Shown here piece by piece: positions 26,893-35,466 of a stretch of DNA of 64,000 bases; position 1 is the stretch's first letter; every line of letters begins with the position of its first letter. A model generated the notes under the pieces. The model was not told the DNA's origin. It worked only from the letters and a program-made list of their open reading frames with translations, and did not search any database. The DNA is from Chitinophaga pinensis DSM 2588. GTDB lineage: Bacteria > Bacteroidota > Bacteroidia > Chitinophagales > Chitinophagaceae. The stretch lies in NCBI RefSeq assembly GCF_000024005.1, contig NC_013132.1:1488001-1552000 (forward strand). The letters run 5' to 3'. The position numbers and the translations under genes are program-made.

Positions 26893-28131
26893 ATGTTACC
26901 CCTCAATATCACGCGGAGACCGGATCAATCAACAGATTTTATTGATGATCTCAGACTGCAGGATAAGCTGGAAGAACTTGCGCAAACAATAAAAATACTG
27001 GTATATAAGGAGGACGAAAATATCATATCCCTACTGGACATCAATGATGATGATATCTTTCTGGAACCACTGTTATTTGCCTGGTTTAATAACGCAACAG
27101 CTCCCAACCGTCCTTCACTGGAACAGATCCTGTTTGGATACATTTCTGAAGAACAGCGCCCAAATTCGTTTACAGCGACATTTGATCCGCATGGTATAGC
27201 TTATCTGCCTAAAATGGGAAGCATTTGCCTTACCGGTGCAACCCATGTAGAAACAGCGCAGGTGCGCTACAGAGGAGGAACAACCTTCGAAGTAAGACAT
27301 GGGGATACACTGCTGCCACATACTTTTGTGCCGCTGCAGATGGTTGGTGGTTTTGAATTGCTGCCATTCAATCACCCCCTGTTTTATAAGTATTTTGTCC
27401 CTGTACGTGAAGACGCTGTCGTGGATGCATCAGCGATTGATACCTACAACATCAGCGTGTTACAGCGCGATAACCTGGAACGTGCACTGAAGCTCATTGA
27501 AGCACACTGTCCTGCTTTTTACAGGATGTCCTGTATGACAAACCGCAAGATAGTGATCTTTAACAGCGAACCCGTTAACAGCTTTGCTACAAAAGAATTA
27601 CAGGGGACTGTGTTCCTGAATGCAAATGCGAACAGCAACATCGCTTTCTTTCTGGACGATCTGATACACCAGTGGTCACACAATATGCTCAATGCTTACA
27701 TGTTCAATATGGACGAGTATTTTGTGATCAATCCTGAACTGAAATTATTATCAGATTATTCAGGGATAACAGCTGACAAAAGAAATATCTACGACGCTTT
27801 CCATGGAATATTTACCGTGGCGCAACGTGTGAAATGTTTTGATGTGTTGTTCAGGTTAAAGGATGCATTCTCCCGGGAAGAACGTCATGAACTGATAGCC
27901 CGGTACTGTGACCAGAGCCGCAGATATAAGACCGGTATGCAAACAGTTGTTTTTTCAGAAGTCTATACCGATGCAGGAGAAAATCTCTATACATCCCTGC
28001 ATGAAGGTATTGAGCATACACTGGAAAACATCAGACATATACTGGATCGTGCGGACTTCTCCAATCAGGTTTCCAGGTTTAGTTATCCTAATTTTTGTCT
28101 CTTAAATGATTACTCAATAACCAGCGAATAA
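26893..28131 (+). CDS. HExxH-type putative peptide-modification protein (motif is HQxxH)
   Basis: A 412-residue cytoplasmic protein resembling the TIGR04267-type 'HExxH motif-containing putative peptide modification protein' found in RiPP clusters. The metal motif is H259-Q-W-S-H263 in DDLIHQWSHNML, followed about 40 residues later by KRNIYDAFHGIFTVAQRV, where H304 is the probable third ligand. The usual motif Glu is Gln, which would impair a peptidase. Some HExxH enzymes are believed to act instead as metal-dependent oxygenases or hydroxylases on precursor peptides, a reading in which Gln might be tolerated. It precedes the barrel protein by 40 bp and the precursor gene by 2.5 kb. Confidence 0.68.
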   Translation: MLPLNITRRPDQSTDFIDDLRLQDKLEELAQTIKILVYKEDENIISLLDINDDDIFLEPLLFAWFNNATAPNRPSLEQILFGYISEEQRPNSFTATFDPHGIAYLPKMGSICLTGATHVETAQVRYRGGTTFEVRHGDTLLPHTFVPLQMVGGFELLPFNHPLFYKYFVPVREDAVVDASAIDTYNISVLQRDNLERALKLIEAHCPAFYRMSCMTNRKIVIFNSEPVNSFATKELQGTVFLNANANSNIAFFLDDLIHQWSHNMLNAYMFNMDEYFVINPELKLLSDYSGITADKRNIYDAFHGIFTVAQRVKCFDVLFRLKDAFSREERHELIARYCDQSRRYKTGMQTVVFSEVYTDAGENLYTSLHEGIEHTLENIRHILDRADFSNQVSRFSYPNFCLLNDYSITSE

Positions 28132-28171
28132 CCAATAGATCCTGTTCCGATTTGCTTTTAAATGAAAACCT

Positions 28172-30592
28172 ATGATGAGCGCTTGTAAAAAGACAGCGTC
28201 ACTGTTACTATTGTCTGTACTCATTCACCTACAGGTGTCAGCCCAGTTACAGATTAGAGGAACAGTGAAGGAGGATAGTACGCAGTTACCTATCGCATAT
28301 GCTAAAATTACTGTGTTGAATCTGCCCGATTCGACAATAGTTGCCAATGCCGAAAGCGATGCTGCAGGTGGCTATGAAATCAGACACCTGAAGAAAGGAA
28401 ACTACGCACTGAAAGCAGTGTTAATCGGCTACAGGGAAGTATCTGTTCCGTTGAATCTTACCACCACTGATAACAATATTGCAGAACAGTCGCTGGTATT
28501 GAAAAGAGACCCTCGTCTGTTAAAAGAAGTGACTGTCGCATCGCGAAAGCCACTGATAGAATATAAGATCGATAAAATAGTACTGAACGTAGAGAAGAGT
28601 ATCCTGACAAACGGGAACTCTGTATGGAATCTCCTGGGTAAATCACCCGGTGTGGAAACCAGTGGCAGTGCAGTATCTATACTCGGTACTACAGGCGCTG
28701 TAGTATTGATAAATGGTAAATCAACTTATCTGCGCGGAGAACAACTGAGCAACATGCTGAGAGGTATGGCAGCCGATCAGGTAAGTCAGATAGAGATCAT
28801 TAAACATCCTTCTGCCCGCTATGAAGCAGGACAAGGTGTTGGTGTGGTGAATATCAGAACAGTAAGGAACCAGGCGGAAGGTATGAATGGAACCGCGTCT
28901 TTTACATACGGACAGGGAAAATATGATAAATACAGTCCCGCGGTAAACCTGAACTATAAAGTAGGAAAGCTGAATGCTTATGCGAACTATTCTTTCATGA
29001 GCATTAAAGATTATCAGCGGCAACCATCTTATGTTAATTATGCTGATCAGACAGTTCCGGTGTATTTCGATCAACAACAATATGCGCGTACAATCAACAG
29101 ATCGCATACGCTGATCGGCGGACTGGATTATACCATCAACGCCAAGCATACAATAGGTTTTCAGGTCAATGCCCAGCGGGTACGCAGGAAAAGCCAGTAT
29201 GATAATGATACTTATATCTGGAGCAAAGGCAATATAGATTCTATTGTACATACTAACAGCGCCATCAGATATCCGTCAGGTGTGCAGTTGTATAATGTGT
29301 ACTATAATCTGACAATGGGTGCGAAAGGATCCCTGAGTGTAAATGCAGACTATGCACATTACAACGCGGACAATGGACAGGACTATTTCTTTTCCTACTT
29401 CAATCCAAATATGGAGGAACGAAAACCCTCTGCTTACTTCAGGAACGAAGCGCCTGTAAAGCTGAATGTAAAAGGCATTACCGTCGATTTTATAAGAAAG
29501 CTGAAGAACGATTATACCCTGGAACTGGGCGCCAAAAGCACCTGGATGGAGAATAACAGCGACCTCGTTTACGCGGAATTGGAAGGGGATAAATACAGGG
29601 TAGATACTGCACAACTGAATAAGTTTGACTATACAGAAAATGTCAATGCCGCCTATTTTAACCTGGAAAAGGCATTTAAGAAATGGACGGTAAAGGCAGG
29701 TACACGTGTGGAACAGACCATTGCAAAAGGTAGTGTGTTAAGGCAGAACGATATCGTTGACAGGAATTATTTCAGGGTATTCCCGTCTGTGTTCGCACAG
29801 TATGTGGTCAATAAGAACCATGAATTTAATTTTTCTTACACCACGAGCTTTGAGCGGCCGAATTATAATTATCTCAGTCCGCTGGCCATCCGGAGAGATC
29901 CCAATGCTTATTCAACGGGTAATCCTTTCCTGAAGCCTTCTTATACCAATACGCTGGAACTGGCTTATATATTCAGGAAGAAATATCGCGTAGCGATCGA
30001 GATAGATAATATCAGCGACAGGATTGAACAGTCAGTACAGCAGCATTATGATACACAGTCATTGCAGAATATCATTGCAAATATTGATCACTGCTATTAC
30101 TACCGTATTTACTTTATTATTCCTGTCACAATCACGAAATGGTGGCAGAGTAATATCACCTGGAATAATTACCTGATACAGTATAAGACGCCTTATCTGA
30201 ATGGTACTTATAACATCACGAAACCGGTATTTTATATCAACGCGAATAATACATTTCCTATATCTAAGAGTGTGACGGCAGAGATGACAGCTTATTACAG
30301 AACGCCATCGCTGAATGGTTTGTATGAAGTAGGTACACGTTTCTTTGTGGATGCAGCTATCCGTAAAACATTCTCTGCAAAGTTTGCAGCCGTGTTAAGT
30401 GTAACGGATATCTTCTATACCAACAGGTGGCAGTGGGACATCAACTACCTGGACCAGCACTCCGGATACAAAACCTATACCGATTCAAGGGTTGTTAAAC
30501 TGAACCTCAGTTATAAGTTTGGCAACAGTAAACTGAGAACTGCCAAGAGACATACCATCGGTATCGGCAGCGAAAGGGATAGAATGAGATAA
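28172..30592 (+). CDS. Outer-membrane beta-barrel protein (TonB-receptor-like, OMP_b-brl_3 type)
   Basis: An 806-residue exported protein: signal peptide (about 1-24, ending VSAQ), a carboxypeptidase-regulatory-like beta-sandwich at about 27-110 (RGTVKEDSTQLPIAYAKITVLN), a plug-like domain at about 112-235 (LLGKSPGVE, VLINGKSTYLRGEQLSNMLRGM, IEIIKHPSARYEAGQGVGVVNI) and a long barrel to the C-terminus. This is the outer-membrane barrel family often seen in Bacteroidota. It sits between the HExxH-type gene and the precursor gene, so it may export, import or bind the mature peptide; that role is inferred from position only. Confidence 0.85.
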   Translation: MMSACKKTASLLLLSVLIHLQVSAQLQIRGTVKEDSTQLPIAYAKITVLNLPDSTIVANAESDAAGGYEIRHLKKGNYALKAVLIGYREVSVPLNLTTTDNNIAEQSLVLKRDPRLLKEVTVASRKPLIEYKIDKIVLNVEKSILTNGNSVWNLLGKSPGVETSGSAVSILGTTGAVVLINGKSTYLRGEQLSNMLRGMAADQVSQIEIIKHPSARYEAGQGVGVVNIRTVRNQAEGMNGTASFTYGQGKYDKYSPAVNLNYKVGKLNAYANYSFMSIKDYQRQPSYVNYADQTVPVYFDQQQYARTINRSHTLIGGLDYTINAKHTIGFQVNAQRVRRKSQYDNDTYIWSKGNIDSIVHTNSAIRYPSGVQLYNVYYNLTMGAKGSLSVNADYAHYNADNGQDYFFSYFNPNMEERKPSAYFRNEAPVKLNVKGITVDFIRKLKNDYTLELGAKSTWMENNSDLVYAELEGDKYRVDTAQLNKFDYTENVNAAYFNLEKAFKKWTVKAGTRVEQTIAKGSVLRQNDIVDRNYFRVFPSVFAQYVVNKNHEFNFSYTTSFERPNYNYLSPLAIRRDPNAYSTGNPFLKPSYTNTLELAYIFRKKYRVAIEIDNISDRIEQSVQQHYDTQSLQNIIANIDHCYYYRIYFIIPVTITKWWQSNITWNNYLIQYKTPYLNGTYNITKPVFYINANNTFPISKSVTAEMTAYYRTPSLNGLYEVGTRFFVDAAIRKTFSAKFAAVLSVTDIFYTNRWQWDINYLDQHSGYKTYTDSRVVKLNLSYKFGNSKLRTAKRHTIGIGSERDRMR

Positions 30593-30677
30593 TTGTTATT
30601 TACAATACACAAGGGTTTTACAGAGGAAGCCGAAAATCTGCGACAGAGTAGGCGTTAACCAAATAAACGTTCATTGT

Positions 30678-30848
30678 ATGAAAATGGGTAAAAACAGCTC
30701 CAAAGCTAACGAAACAAAGAAAAAACTGACCATCGAAGAGCTGAAAGCAGCAGCACAGTCAGTGAAAGCAGAAGATGCGCTGGCAAAAATCGTAGGTGGT
30801 ACACTCGCATCTTGCCACACTACGCTGGAAACAGCATCTGCGCTGTAA
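30678..30848 (+). CDS. RiPP precursor peptide with double-glycine leader
   Basis: A 56-codon ORF. The leader is lysine-rich at the start, then amphipathic (KLTIEELKAAAQSVKAEDAL) and ends AKIVGG with Gly40-Gly41, the classical site for C39 peptidases. The core that would be released is TLASCHTTLETASAL (residues 42-56), rich in Thr/Ser/Ala with one Cys46 and one His47. The C39 peptidase-ABC exporter and the PqqD-domain methyltransferase are encoded downstream, and an attenuator hairpin lies 22 bp after the stop. An ATG two codons later (30684) could also be the start. The gene is too short for most ORF callers. Its identity rests on leader shape and context; I do not recognise the sequence. Confidence 0.8.
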   Translation: MKMGKNSSKANETKKKLTIEELKAAAQSVKAEDALAKIVGGTLASCHTTLETASAL

Positions 30849-30870
30849 TCGAAACTACGTAAGAGTGTAA

Positions 30871-30904
30871 ACAAGGGCAGTAGCAATACTGCTCTTGTCT
30901 TTTT
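30871..30904 (+). terminator. Attenuator-like hairpin after the precursor gene
   Basis: ACAAGGGCAGTA (30871-30882) pairs with TACTGCTCTTGT (30887-30898) over 12 bp with one G-U, loop GCAA, followed by CTTTTT. Placed between the precursor and its modification genes on the same strand, it likely allows partial read-through so that much more precursor than enzyme is made. Confidence 0.82.
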
Positions 30905-30927
30905 CCCTTCACTAATAACCCCGCAAT

Positions 30928-31656
30928 ATGGATAACGAATTAACAACGTTCCATGCCGGTGATACGATCGTTGCCGCCAATGCAGGATGGACCTTCTCCG
31001 GTAAAACTGTGGCCGCCTTTGATACACACGCTCCCAAGTCGATTCCCTTATATCATGAAGGACATGACCTTATTGTAAAGTTATCGGATTTCTTTTTGTC
31101 GGACGATTCAGTATGTTATGAAATAGGTTGCTCAACAGCCGAACTCACCAAACAGTTAGCCATTAACTGTAAAGAAAAAGATGTTGAAATAATAGGCGTA
31201 GACAGAGAAGCCGATATGATCAGTGCTGCAAAGGAAAAATGCAGTGCATATCCGCAGGTTTCTTTTATATGTGATGATATACTTGATATCGACCTGAAGA
31301 AAAGTGACCTGATCATCCTGTATTACACCCTTCAATTCATAAAGCCGAAAGTGCGGCAACTGGTGGTGGACAAAATATACAATGCGCTCAACTGGGGCGG
31401 TGCGTTAATCATGTTTGAAAAAGTACGGGCGAATGATGCGCGTTTTCAGGATATTGCTACCAGCCTCTATACGGAGTTTAAACTGGCGCAGGGTTTTACT
31501 GCCGGAGAGATTCTGGCTAAGAGCAGAAGTCTGAAAGGTGTACTGGAACCTTTTTCTACTACCGGAAATAAAGACCTGCTGACAAGGGCCGGTTTTGTAG
31601 ATATCCTGTCTGTGATGAAATATGTTTGTTTTGAGGGTTTTCTTGCTATAAAATAA
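30928..31656 (+). CDS. CmoA-like class I SAM-dependent enzyme
   Basis: A 242-residue Rossmann-fold SAM enzyme closest in appearance to CmoA, the carboxy-S-adenosylmethionine synthase of tRNA modification: WTFSGKTVAAFDTHAPKSIP near residues 21-40, motif I YEIGCSTAELTK at 64-75, the acidic GVDREADMI at 90-98, YYTLQFIKPKVRQ at 132-144 and the NALNWGGALIMFEK block at 152-165. The ending LKGVLEPFSTTGNKDLLTRAGF is found in CmoA-like methyltransferases of other bacteria. Compared from memory with E. coli CmoA, the Arg that contacts the carboxylate (R199 there) falls one position off, at R200. It may therefore be an ordinary methyltransferase or a carboxy-SAM maker. The next gene begins 5 bp downstream. 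Confidence 0.72.
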   Translation: MDNELTTFHAGDTIVAANAGWTFSGKTVAAFDTHAPKSIPLYHEGHDLIVKLSDFFLSDDSVCYEIGCSTAELTKQLAINCKEKDVEIIGVDREADMISAAKEKCSAYPQVSFICDDILDIDLKKSDLIILYYTLQFIKPKVRQLVVDKIYNALNWGGALIMFEKVRANDARFQDIATSLYTEFKLAQGFTAGEILAKSRSLKGVLEPFSTTGNKDLLTRAGFVDILSVMKYVCFEGFLAIK

Positions 31657-31661
31657 ATCAG

Positions 31662-33068
31662 ATGATTACATATACTGACATTGCTGCCGATCAGATGATC
31701 TGCCTGCAATGCGGAGCGCCTCTTATAAAAGAGGAGACATACAGTTGTGCTGTATGCCATAAAGACTATCAGCACCTGCATGGGGTGCCATTGTTTATGA
31801 GCGACGAAGAGGAATATATTGCCGGTATGGCAAAACAATACGCAGATTTTGCCCGCCAGAAGGAAACTGAATTGGGTGAACTGGAACAGGCTTTTGAGAA
31901 CAGACCCTACAGACAGGTATACTGGCAGCAATTAAGAAAAGCATTGTCCGGCAATAATGAGCTAATAGGCACACTGGTCAACATGCTATGTGAGCGTGTG
32001 AGTCCTGCTGCACTGCTCAGGACCAGGTCTTCTTCCGCATCAGCCGCCGTCCTGAAAGATTTTCAATACCTGAAACGGGACTGGTGCTGGCTGGAAGAAG
32101 GAGAATTGCAATTGTCTGAAATACTGGGCCCACTGGAAGAAGTAATCAGTGACGCCATCAGCGACCGGGAGAATATTCTTGTGGCAGGGGCAGGAGTTGG
32201 GCGTATCGCTGTGGAACTCTGCGGATATTTTGAAAAGGTATATGCAACAGATCTGTCCTTTTCTATGCTCTGGTTCTTTCAGCAGTTGCTAAAAGGCGCG
32301 AGTATCAATTTTCATGAAATCAACTACGCTAATATATTACAGGATACTTATGTAGCCAGAGAACTGACCGCCAGCTATCATGCTCCTTTCAGCGGGTATA
32401 CGTTACCCGAGGTGAGTGATAAGCTTTTCTGTTACATTTCGGATATCCTGCATTCTCCGCATAAAGACGGCAGTATCTCTGCTTTTTGTTCTGCCTATTT
32501 TACGGACGTACTGGCCCTGAAGCTCTTATTGCCTGAAGTAAAAAGATTGTTGAAACCGGGCGGTGTGTTTATTCATCTCGGACCACTGGGATATGGGTTT
32601 GAAGACGTCAGCGAGAAGCTGGCTGCCAACGAGATTAGGGCTGCTTTTATAAGGGCTGGCTTTGAAGTGGTGCGGGAGGAAGTGATCACATGCAACCACC
32701 TGGAATCGGAATTGTCTATGCAGACGGTTTCCCTGAAGAACTGGCTGGTCGTGTTTCGTAAGAAAGAATATGTACAGCGGCCGATAGAGGATACCACCAT
32801 ATTCGGTGTTGCTGAAGGCATAAAATATGAAGTGAGAGGCCGGCTGGAAGAAGATATTCCGATGGATCAGATTATGATCCGTACGGCAGAAGGAGAGGCG
32901 GTTATCATTGCCGAACTGGCTTTTGACATATTGCGCTTTCTGGCTGCGCCACAGACATTCGAAGCATTGATCACGCACCTGGATAGTTGCTATGAGATCG
33001 AAGCACCTTCTATGATAGCAGATGTATTACTGCACCTTGAATCACTGAAAGTGATCAACAGAATCTAA
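31662..33068 (+). CDS. Zinc ribbon / carnosine N-methyltransferase-like (N2227) / PqqD fusion enzyme
   Basis: A 468-residue three-part protein. Residues 12-46 form a Trm112-like zinc ribbon with C14, C17, C29 and C32. Residues 130-370 resemble the N2227 family (carnosine N-methyltransferase): LKDFQYLKRDWCW, the SAM loop NILVAGAGVGRIAVEL (171-186), D282 in AYFTDV and LKPGGVFIHLGPLGYGFED (297-315). In animal CARNMT1 the corresponding Asp and a His in GPLLYHF bind the imidazole; the His is Gly312 here. Residues about 385-468 (AEGEAVIIAELAFDILRFL ... SLKVINRI) match a PqqD-type RRE that binds leader peptides. It probably modifies the precursor's core, with His47 the obvious candidate. No fusion of this kind is known to me. 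Confidence 0.75.
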   Translation: MITYTDIAADQMICLQCGAPLIKEETYSCAVCHKDYQHLHGVPLFMSDEEEYIAGMAKQYADFARQKETELGELEQAFENRPYRQVYWQQLRKALSGNNELIGTLVNMLCERVSPAALLRTRSSSASAAVLKDFQYLKRDWCWLEEGELQLSEILGPLEEVISDAISDRENILVAGAGVGRIAVELCGYFEKVYATDLSFSMLWFFQQLLKGASINFHEINYANILQDTYVARELTASYHAPFSGYTLPEVSDKLFCYISDILHSPHKDGSISAFCSAYFTDVLALKLLLPEVKRLLKPGGVFIHLGPLGYGFEDVSEKLAANEIRAAFIRAGFEVVREEVITCNHLESELSMQTVSLKNWLVVFRKKEYVQRPIEDTTIFGVAEGIKYEVRGRLEEDIPMDQIMIRTAEGEAVIIAELAFDILRFLAAPQTFEALITHLDSCYEIEAPSMIADVLLHLESLKVINRI

Positions 33069-33088
33069 TTATCTTAAACCGTTATCAG

Positions 33089-35302
33089 TTGATCAGATTT
33101 TCCTCATTTCCGTTCTTCAGGCAGCTGGACCAGATGGACTGCGGAGCAGCCTGTCTGAAGATGATCTGTGCTTTTTACAAAAAGAATTATTCCATTCAGC
33201 AGCTCAGGGAAATGTCGGGTATCACCAGACAGGGCGTTTCTGTACTGGGGCTTTGCGACGCCGCGGAACAGATCGGGATGAAAACACTGGCGCTCAATAT
33301 CAGTTTTGAGTCGCTGGTGAACGACGTACCGCTGCCTTGTATCGTACACTGGCGGCAGCGACATTTTGTGGTGGTCTATAAGACAGATGATCAGCATATC
33401 TGGGTGGCAGATCCTGCTTTCGGTAAGGTAAAATATACCCACGCAAAGTTTCTGGAAGGCTGGTTATACAACAAGAAGACTAAGAAAGAGGAGGAACAGG
33501 AAGGATTTGCCCTGTTTTTAGAACCTTCTGCGGAGTTTTATAATAGAGAGGACCAAGTAGCAGGGCGACCTCTTGATCTGCGATTTTTGCTGCCTTATTT
33601 GCGCTCACATAAGCAGATACTCTATCAGGTGATGATCGGAGTACTGATTCTTTCTTTTATACAGGTCGTTTTCCCTTTTCTGACAAAGGCGCTGGTCGAT
33701 AAAGGTATCCGGTTTAATAATCTCAATTTTGTATACCTGATTCTAGCCGGGCAACTGGTGTTATTTCTGTCACAGACGGGGGCCGAAATAGTGCGCCGCT
33801 GGCTGTTGCTGTACATGAGTAAGCGTGTAAATATCGCCATCGTTTCCGACTTCCTGGTGAAGATGATGAAACTGCCGATCGCGTTTTTTGATTCCAAAAT
33901 GATCACTGATCTTATTCAGCGTATAGAAGATCAGAAGCAGATAGATACCTTCTTATCCAATACCTCACTTAGTGTATTGTTTTCCCTGATCAACATATTG
34001 TTGTTCGGCACAGTACTGTGTGTATTCAGCTTTCCTTTATTCCTGATTTTCCTGGCGGGGAGTACGTTGTACTTTACCTGGATCATGTTGTTTGTAAAAA
34101 AGCGGGCTGTCCTGAGTTATAAAAGAAGGGACGAGTCAGTAGAAAACAGGAGTAGTATTCTTGAGATCATGCATGGTATCCAGGAAGTGAAACTGAATAA
34201 TAGTGAGCGCCGACGCAGATGGGAGTGGGAGTCTGTTCAGAACAGGGTGTATAACACAGCGGTGAAGGAATTGCGCCTGGAGCAGTTACAGGTAGTAGGT
34301 GGTAATTTCCTCCTGCAGCTGATGAATATCATTATCACTTTTGTGGCTGCCTGGTCAGTAATAGAAGGTAGAATTACCCTAGGTGTGATGCTGGCCACAC
34401 AATACATCATCGGACAACTGGCTACGCCGCTGAATAGTTTTGTGGCATTCATCCATGGCGCCGCAGAAGCCCGTATCAGTATAGAGCGCATAGGAGAGGT
34501 ACTGAATGTGGAAGAGGAAGATAAACAGAAGCATACTTTCGATGTATCTGACGAAGAAAATGATCTGGTGCTGGATAATGTCTCCTTCCGTTATGGAAGC
34601 GCCAGTTCGCGGCTGGTACTAAAGAATATCAGTCTGACCATTCCCCGGGGAAAAGTAACGGCTATAGTGGGAACCAGTGGTAGCGGAAAAACAACCCTGA
34701 TGAAACTATTGCTGAAGTTTTATGACCCTACTTCCGGTAGCATTAATCTTGGTGACAAATCACTGGAAGGTCTGGACAGCCGTCACTGGCGTAGCAACTG
34801 TGGTGTGGTGATGCAGGACGGGTTCATTTTTGCGGATACTGTACTACGCAATATTACAGAGTCGGATAACGATTATACGATTGATAAAGAAAGGTTGCAG
34901 CAGGCGGTGCATGTTGCCAACATTGAAGATATGATCGAGCAATTACCTTCCGGTTATCATACGAATCTGAGTCACGGGGGCATTGCTTTAAGTGGTGGGG
35001 AATACCAGCGTGTATTGATCGCGCGGGCGGTCTATAAAGGTCCGGCCTTCCTGTTCTTTGACGAGGCAACCAGTTCGCTGGACGCTAATAATGAAAAAGT
35101 GATCATGGAGAATCTGCAGGAGTTTTTTAAAGGGAGGACAGTTGTGATTATTGCACACCGTTTAAGTACCGTAAAACATGCGGATAAGATCATCGTTCTG
35201 GATAAAGGAGAGATCATAGAAGAAGGTGATCATACGGAGCTGGTGGCGCTGAAGCAACATTACTTCAAACTTGTAAAGAATCAACTGGAACTGGGAAAAT
35301 GA
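33089..35302 (+). CDS. C39-peptidase ABC exporter (PCAT) for the double-glycine peptide
   Basis: A 737-residue peptidase-containing ABC transporter. The N-terminal C39 domain has catalytic C18 (QMDCGAACLKM), H92 (QRHFVVV) and D108 (VADPAFG), with Q12 for the oxyanion hole. A membrane domain at about 155-445 follows, and the ATPase has Walker A GTSGSGKTTL, signature LSGGEYQRVLIARA, Walker B FLFFDEATSSLD and an AHR switch His. It should cut after Gly41 of the precursor and export the core across the inner membrane. Translation seems to begin at a TTG (33089), since no ATG or GTG exists before the conserved SSFPFFRQLDQMDCG. Overlaps the next small gene by 4 bp. Confidence 0.93.
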   Translation: MIRFSSFPFFRQLDQMDCGAACLKMICAFYKKNYSIQQLREMSGITRQGVSVLGLCDAAEQIGMKTLALNISFESLVNDVPLPCIVHWRQRHFVVVYKTDDQHIWVADPAFGKVKYTHAKFLEGWLYNKKTKKEEEQEGFALFLEPSAEFYNREDQVAGRPLDLRFLLPYLRSHKQILYQVMIGVLILSFIQVVFPFLTKALVDKGIRFNNLNFVYLILAGQLVLFLSQTGAEIVRRWLLLYMSKRVNIAIVSDFLVKMMKLPIAFFDSKMITDLIQRIEDQKQIDTFLSNTSLSVLFSLINILLFGTVLCVFSFPLFLIFLAGSTLYFTWIMLFVKKRAVLSYKRRDESVENRSSILEIMHGIQEVKLNNSERRRRWEWESVQNRVYNTAVKELRLEQLQVVGGNFLLQLMNIIITFVAAWSVIEGRITLGVMLATQYIIGQLATPLNSFVAFIHGAAEARISIERIGEVLNVEEEDKQKHTFDVSDEENDLVLDNVSFRYGSASSRLVLKNISLTIPRGKVTAIVGTSGSGKTTLMKLLLKFYDPTSGSINLGDKSLEGLDSRHWRSNCGVVMQDGFIFADTVLRNITESDNDYTIDKERLQQAVHVANIEDMIEQLPSGYHTNLSHGGIALSGGEYQRVLIARAVYKGPAFLFFDEATSSLDANNEKVIMENLQEFFKGRTVVIIAHRLSTVKHADKIIVLDKGEIIEEGDHTELVALKQHYFKLVKNQLELGK

Positions 35303-35466
35303 TAAAGCGATATAAAGCAATCGACGAGGTGCCTGAGAAAGGTGATTTTGTACTTGAAGTACAGAAGGACAAACCTCATTGGTTACTGCGTTATGGTAAC
35401 CTGTTGATCCTGATGTTTCTGGCTGCGGGGATATGCTTATTCCTGTATTGGAAAGACCGGATATAA
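35299..35466 (+). CDS. 55-residue single-helix protein resembling the N-terminal anchor of an HlyD-type adaptor
   Basis: A short ORF starting inside the exporter's stop codon (ATGA overlap), encoding 55 residues. The first 30 are polar (KGDFVLEVQKDKPHWLLRYGN), followed by one membrane helix at about 33-50 (LLILMFLAAGICLFLYW). The sequence before the helix resembles the opening of Bacteroidota HlyD-family secretion adaptors, which share an E-V-Q ... W-L/I-x-R-x-G-N pattern, but the coiled-coil and beta domains are missing. It may be a degenerate adaptor, an exporter subunit or an immunity peptide. Translation coupling to the exporter supports it being real. Confidence 0.65.
   Translation: MIKRYKAIDEVPEKGDFVLEVQKDKPHWLLRYGNLLILMFLAAGICLFLYWKDRI

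Follow-up and report, generated by a model that had tools for sequence, protein, structure and literature searches.

A GG-leader peptide cluster with a conserved Cys-His signature in Chitinophaga pinensis, likely a new type of RiPP system

Gene content of the cluster

We analysed a window of 64,000 nucleotides (the whole stretch of DNA under study) that lies within the single-contig genome (9,127,347 bases) of Chitinophaga pinensis DSM 2588. It carries eight genes on the same (+) strand, encoding an aldo-keto reductase (AKR), a protein with an HQxxH motif, an outer-membrane barrel, a small precursor peptide, a CmoA-related S-adenosylmethionine (SAM) enzyme, a CARME methyltransferase, a C39-peptidase exporter and a membrane anchor (Table 1). 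An initial annotation had read seven of these as a cluster for a ribosomally synthesized and post-translationally modified peptide (RiPP). All seven open reading frames (ORFs) were recovered in place on the + strand, but the reductase had been overlooked. The RiPP interpretation itself is supported by a small leader-core precursor conserved with its enzymes, by peptide-modifying enzyme families beside it (CARME, and the HQxxH protein by predicted fold) and by a leader-cleaving exporter. Computation shows which genes the cluster holds, their conservation together, the signature of the precursor and the folds predicted.

Table 1. Features of the cluster (positions in the window)
Feature	Position	Strand	Basis
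Aldo-keto reductase, 428 aa	25495..26781	+	Pfam PF00248, 101 bits
HQxxH protein, predicted alpha-ketoglutarate HExxH-type oxygenase fold, 412 aa	26893..28131	+	
HQWSH motif (H259, H263)	27667..27681	+	Column conservation in HQxxH alignment
Outer-membrane beta-barrel with carboxypeptidase-regulatory-like domain, OMP_b-brl_3/TonB type	28172..30592	+	Pfam PF14905, 301 bits
Precursor gene, 56 residues	30678-30848	+	Direct reading
Precursor leader, ending Gly-Gly	30678..30800	+	Direct reading and family conservation
Core peptide TLASCHTTLETASAL	30801..30845	+	Direct reading; family with conserved Cys-His
Cys-His dipeptide, proposed modification site	30813..30818	+	Conserved in relatives
Stem-loop then T-run directly 3' of precursor, terminator- or attenuator-like	30871..30898	+	
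CmoA-related SAM enzyme without R199 equivalent, 242 aa	30928..31656	+	TIGR00740; 4gek alignment
CARME/N2227 methyltransferase, 468 aa; Cys-rich stretch at the N-terminus, PqqD-like domain at the C-terminus	31662..33068	+	
D282, equivalent of CARNMT1 Asp316	32505..32507	+	HMMER alignment to 5yf0
PqqD-like C-terminal domain of CARME (RiPP recognition element type)	32871..33047	+	Pfam E 0.035; relatives' profile
C39 peptidase-ABC exporter (peptidase-containing ATP-binding cassette transporter)	33089..35302	+	Pfam PF03412, PF00664, PF00005
55-aa membrane anchor, N-terminal piece of HlyD-type adaptor	35299..35466	+	Weak matches to relatives

Apart from the precursor, the cluster genes are under purifying selection, with dN/dS values of 0.01-0.10 against the close relatives L004 and L005; the precursor differs from theirs by 2-3 changes in all. 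L005 is Chitinophaga pinensis YS-16, which has the same genes and a CARME protein that is 94% identical, and neither relative counts as independent of the window cluster. Synonymous divergence from these two was 0.18-0.23 for the HQxxH gene, 0.03-0.08 for the short precursor and 0.6-0.96 for CARME or the exporter, with an intermediate value (0.45-0.59) for the barrel gene that lies between HQxxH and precursor. The low values in 26893-30848 hint at recent recombination of that part.

The C39 peptidase, ABC membrane and ATPase domains of the exporter all scored above their Pfam cut-offs, and the barrel, too, was borne out by Pfam, which specifies its type. The last gene had been described as coding for a one-helix protein. 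Such a protein is present, but it matches, weakly (E 0.006 to 6e-5), the N-terminus of HlyD-family proteins of relatives, one of which (L014:3756-5027) is HlyD by Pfam. The gene is conserved in the two close relatives (dN/dS 0.05-0.10) and, judged by these matches, its product is a shortened HlyD-type adaptor. Directly downstream of the precursor, the stem-loop has a 12-pair stem and a minimum free energy of -18.6 kcal/mol (z -2.5; 3 of 200 shuffles were as good). Terminator-like sites in the region overall numbered 18, against 8.1 in shuffles, and the stem-loop is taken as supporting evidence only. Together with its T-run, it would be a usual way to yield more precursor than enzyme message.

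The Cys-His precursor and the genes that travel with it

The predicted GG-leader precursor stood up well. Its core opens with TLASCH, that is, Cys-His occupies core positions 5-6. The form GG, one to six residues, Cys-His was found in 26 of 2,395 ORFs (of at most 140 aa), located in 16 of the 20 CARME loci that we collected, so that the expected conservation of the precursor alongside the N2227 enzyme and the C39 exporter reaches well beyond Chitinophagaceae. For seven control motifs built alike, the matches numbered 7 for His-Cys, 4 for Cys-Thr and 1, 1, 1, 0 and 0 for the others; by reading, six of the seven His-Cys matches are the Cys-His ORFs themselves, with cores that read Cys-His-Cys. 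No Cys-His GG-leader ORF was present within the fetched stretches of L010, L022 and two Legionella-type contigs (9.8 and 4.5 kb). Circularity was reduced by a selection on the leader only, over 21 loci (the 20 plus L034): 26 of 2,489 ORFs matched and all 26 have Cys-His, by a pattern that was defined after these leaders had been inspected and that leaves out two motif-found ORFs (L007:945 and one in L021).

Among 5.8 billion proteins, the precursor profile found 141 relatives. In the 120 that were listed, Cys-His follows GG or GA without exception, an invariance that is an upper estimate because database matches need exact 5-residue words shared with query precursors that themselves bear Cys-His, which favours the motif. 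Those relatives also share the leader positions L-7 (117), L-4 (101, with Ile in 16), G-2 (120) and G-1 (120), which we take to be the classic positions of C39 leaders. The head of the core is mostly [IV]L[GA]xCH. Entropy is 0.07 bits at Cys and at His, 3.0 bits at position 7 (Cys in 40) and about 4 bits later, and all 120 cores are distinct, partly by construction since the database is clustered at 90% identity. Named entries among the relatives are labelled hypothetical or uncharacterised proteins, and neither NCBIfam (best E 0.017) nor Pfam (best E 0.063) has a family that fits the 26 precursors. GG, about four residues and Cys-His, most commonly as GGILGACH, could serve as a mining signature for probably secreted peptides.

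Nineteen of the 20 CARME loci come from a collection of species genomes, searched with a profile of nine relatives, and one from genome G288 (L023). The records are Chitinophaga (two), Niastella, Saprospiraceae (two), Cellulophaga, Tenacibaculum, Aquimarina, Croceitalea, Flavobacterium, Chryseobacterium (three), Moheibacter, Crocinitomicaceae, Aureispira, one metagenome-assembled genome (MAG) of Bacteroidetes and two Legionella-type MAGs; the cluster gene set is absent from both Legionella-type contigs. Grouping the selected ORFs (minimum length 80 aa) into families gave, per 20 loci, 18 with HQxxH, 18 with a C39 exporter, 16 with a HlyD-family adaptor (234-441 aa), 14 with a CmoA-like gene, 11 with an AKR and 5 with a barrel. 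Relatives of the cluster, whose peptide tails differ greatly, are scattered across Bacteroidota, and a single cluster can hold as many as four precursors (L008). They are rare: counting seed genomes, the CARME protein occurs in 2 of 294 genomes of the family, in 3 of 395 across the phylum and in 2 of 239 from the family of genome G942, in which a further full cluster was read (L034). The precursor profile matched 4 of 395 genomes of the class and 6 of 239 of the family of G942. Two precursor-seeded scans returned ten genomes including the window's own, four of them with CARME (G000, G648, G930 and G942); since G648 and G930 proved to have the sequences already known from L006 and L019, L024, L030 and L032 were not tallied as additional loci. 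No CARME relative was found in a plasmid collection at E 1e-5.

Two further families, f5 (a TPR protein, from the one member scanned) and f6 (a second secreted-looking protein), each occur in 13 of the 20 loci. They form an adjacent pair (e.g. L014:6169-7466) with N-termini that are, by eye, mostly signal- or lipoprotein-like, and they may be partners or immunity proteins. Neither family turned up in the window's close kin, L004 and L005. In Cellulophaga a protein resembling tryptophan halogenases lies between the precursor and the CmoA-like gene (L007:6988-9138), and in L008 and L019 Rce1-like proteases precede the CmoA-like gene. In one of the Legionella-type MAGs (L018:4205-8742), genes resembling those for asparagine synthase, a nucleotidyltransferase and DsbB lie near the CARME relative, and no Cys-His precursor was found; this is perhaps another peptide pathway with the same methyltransferase.

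The enzymes and their proposed reactions

The N2227-PqqD fusion foreseen by the initial annotation is firm in its first half: CARME scores above the Pfam cut-off (PF07942) and its fold agrees. The structures nearest to it are, by title, histidine-imidazole methyltransferases (first 19 Foldseek rows). Asp282 aligns with Asp316 of CARNMT1, which binds imidazole (HMMER, 5yf0), and is Asp in all 25 rows of the alignment. The PqqD half falls below its cut-off in the window but exceeds it in relative L006 (26.7 bits), and a profile built from nine relatives matches the lasso-peptide PqqD 9x90 and the PqqD 5sxy (E 8.7e-4 and 0.027). A whole-genome search with PF05402 reported one copy, elsewhere than the CARME gene. 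The reading as a RiPP system is supported, with the correction that the putative leader-binding domain is not universal, being found in 13 of 20 loci. The PqqD fusion had been considered as the core of the system, an idea that was lowered on finding that CARME lacks the domain in L013-L017 and that no stand-alone copy was found among the selected ORFs (80 aa or longer) of the 20 loci (profile from 18 of the 25 alignment rows).

The HQxxH protein had been assigned to a peptide-modification family, and the predicted fold agrees with this, being that of the alpha-ketoglutarate (alpha-KG) HExxH oxygenases. There is no Pfam match, however, and the TIGR04267 score of 20.6 bits lies below the cut-off of 40; 5 of 18 members match that family at E 0.01 or lower. 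Both motif histidines, H259 and H263, are present in all 18 rows of the alignment (from which L004, L005 and L034 were left out as close to rows included) and are likely iron ligands, with H304, kept in 16 rows, as a candidate for the third. A profile of the relatives gave one row against PDB sequences, at chance level.

For the third enzyme, a CmoA-like one according to the initial annotation, CmoA is indeed the best named family (the next-best match in the genome scores 32 bits), but TIGR00740 gives 160.1 bits against a cut-off of 193.3. The carboxylate of carboxy-SAM is bound in CmoA by Arg199 (PMC3663124). The corresponding column (4gek alignment, with numbering checked on Asp117 and Asn132, both named in that paper) has Ser in the window and Ser, Thr or Ala in 15 of 15 rows, which suggests a plain SAM enzyme, probably a second methyltransferase. 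The next residue is mostly Arg, with Lys or Asn in three rows. The AKR gene has a homologue within 1.4 kb of the HQxxH or C39 gene in the 11 CARME loci counted above, and L034 also has a homologue; other AKR matches in the genome reach at most 23.4 bits. Residues D40, Y45, K72 and H134, which we take to be the catalytic tetrad, are invariant in 12 of 12 rows. As the reductase keeps them, it could plausibly reduce a carbonyl once the oxygenase has acted.

We consider it probable that this is a cluster for biosynthesis and export of a RiPP modified at Cys-His, of a type undescribed in the searchable literature. We infer each reaction, the order of reactions and an antagonistic or signalling role of the product. 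The GG-leader precursor would be made with its Cys-His in the core, and CARME would methylate an imidazole nitrogen of that histidine, the leader being held by the PqqD-like domain where present. The HQxxH protein, as an iron/alpha-KG oxygenase, would oxidise the Cys-His unit, the CmoA-related enzyme would add a further methylation and the reductase would reduce a carbonyl. The exporter would then cut after GG and secrete a near-constant modified head with a hypervariable tail. Given this near-constant head, the hypervariable tails and the several precursors that one cluster may hold, the product would more likely serve in antagonism, in the recognition of kin or in signalling than as a fixed cofactor. 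A shared warhead is suggested, or an uptake or export tag with a fast-evolving targeting part. If the model is true, it would be a case of histidine-imidazole methylation in a RiPP, and the enzymes could serve as leader-guided editors of peptides bearing Cys-His.

Several points weigh against this proposal, besides the two selection effects given above for the precursors. The place of CARNMT1 His347, presumably a residue that matters, is Gly in the window and Gly, Pro, His, Phe or Asn in the family. The PqqD-like part of the window enzyme scores 14.9 bits against a Pfam cut-off of 23.4 (E 0.035), and 7 of 20 loci lack the domain. Position 260 of the HQxxH protein, where HExxH has Glu, is Gln in 14 of 18 rows including the window and Glu in only 4. 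Moreover, a Cys-His precursor occurs with no CARME gene within about 10 kb in L028 (genome G366), L029 (G478), L045 (G1128), L046 (G1125), L047 (G1176) and L048 (another site in G942), so that Cys-His alone is no proof of histidine methylation. The stretches of L028, L046 and L048 hold no full HQxxH gene, and Cys-His is therefore not strictly tied to HQxxH either; L028 has a short ORF that resembles, by eye, the N-terminus of HQxxH. Another genome, G1169, was examined over a 2.5-kb piece. The Cys-His head is thus older or wider than the CARME enzyme set, and there are exceptions to its link with either enzyme.

The arrangements at these CARME-free loci vary. HQxxH accompanies the precursor in L029, L045 and L047, and f5 is present in L045-L047. 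In L045 (7883-9005) the HQxxH gene beside the precursor is split into two ORFs and is perhaps decaying, and in L047 (8674-12705) a single precursor with two core Cys-His pairs is flanked by two HQxxH genes, followed by f6 and f5. L029 (9894-18728) has its precursor beside genes for a full LanB (Lant_dehydr N and C), a LanC-like protein, HQxxH and C39, that is, the Cys-His precursor type reaches class I lanthipeptide clusters too. In L048 a LanB N-terminal protein lies 6.5 kb from the precursor.

Precursors found with HQxxH and without CARME, as in L029, L045 and L047, would fit the strongest alternative, namely that Cys-His is the target of the HQxxH oxygenase (or of another enzyme) alone, and that CARME methylates, say, the variable tail or the N-terminus. 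We regard this as rather unlikely, given that the nearest structures of CARME are, by title, imidazole methyltransferases and that the only histidine common to the listed cores is that of Cys-His, 60 of the 120 having no other. A more specific chemistry, in which the HQxxH enzyme joins Cys and His through a bond between sulfur and imidazole (or oxidises toward a thio-imidazole) and CARME N-methylates the result, would create an ovothiol-like redox or metal-binding head; we hold this to be quite unlikely, though if true such a head would be displayed on more than 100 different peptide tails.

Carboxymethylation of the peptide by a partner enzyme, with carboxy-SAM made by the CmoA-like protein, was our first idea for that gene and has been lowered to a slightly smaller chance still. 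It draws on CmoA being the best family match and on the CmoA-like gene lying directly upstream of CARME, a possible cofactor-using methyltransferase, on the same strand in 14 of 14 loci that have it. A RiPP pathway with a carboxy-SAM enzyme is that of 3-thiaglutamate. For one RiPP pathway, a dedicated carboxy-SAM enzyme is reported to carry out carboxymethylation (PMC12636315). R199 is not conserved, however, the place of N132 is Tyr in the window enzyme, and the score stays below the curated cut-off. GG leaders and C39 exporters are also features of class II type bacteriocins, so that an unmodified bacteriocin with its exporter beside unrelated enzymes might be imagined (compare the bacteroidetocins in the available part of PMC10352776), but it is the least probable reading of all, since the precursor recurs along with its exporter and enzymes in records of Chitinophaga, Niastella, Cellulophaga, Flavobacterium, Chryseobacterium, Saprospiraceae and others, and a fixed Cys-His head would not be expected in the absence of modification or binding.

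Comparison with known systems

The claim that the enzyme set resembles no described class is likely right: among the matches listed from 5.39 million open-access papers no such system was found, subscription papers and RiPP databases such as MIBiG being outside the scope. Lanthipeptide (LanB, LanM, LanC), ATP-grasp and radical SAM families are all missing from the Pfam matches listed for the eight proteins of the cluster, a listing that covers 25 of 27 families in the case of the exporter. GG motifs and C39 exporters are named in a survey of RiPPs from Bacteroidales, which in the part available mentions neither HEXXH nor Chitinophaga (PMC10352776); 'histidine' and 'imidazole' are likewise absent from the main text, as far as available, of a 2024 review of RiPP methyltransferases (PMC11285071).

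Among individual systems, CARNMT1, the carnosine and C3H zinc-finger histidine N1-methyltransferase, shares with the window enzyme the CARME family, the best structural match and the Asp316 equivalent. The window enzyme, in contrast, is bacterial, has a Cys-rich N-terminus, a PqqD-like C-terminus and an adjoining RiPP-type precursor, and does not keep His347. The methyltransferases OvoM, OvsM and OvoA act, by their PDB titles, on free 5-thio- or selenohistidine, and the Pfam and NCBIfam matches listed for the eight proteins contain no family of sulfoxide synthases. The carboxy-SAM synthase CmoA is the nearest named family of the SAM enzyme, which differs in the unconserved R199 and the score below cut-off. 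The GG-leader radical-SAM precursors of Bacteroidetes (TIGR04149) have a leader of the same GG type, but only 3 of the 26 precursors match them, weakly and not significantly (best E 0.017), and the eight proteins of the window show no radical SAM enzyme. In the alpha-KG HExxH hydroxylase pathways of ChlB, PflC/PosC and PesO the partners are, in the accessible parts of their descriptions, radical SAM enzymes, multinuclear non-heme iron oxygenases (MNIO) or nitrile-forming enzymes; those in the window are CARME, the CmoA-like enzyme and the reductase, and the motif is HQxxH in 14 of 18 rows. Class I lanthipeptide clusters are connected through L029, which combines a Cys-His precursor, HQxxH and C39 with LanB and LanC. 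The cluster is of a known kind in being a probable RiPP system, while its enzyme set and its Cys-His signature appear to be new, and the cluster type is likely novel.

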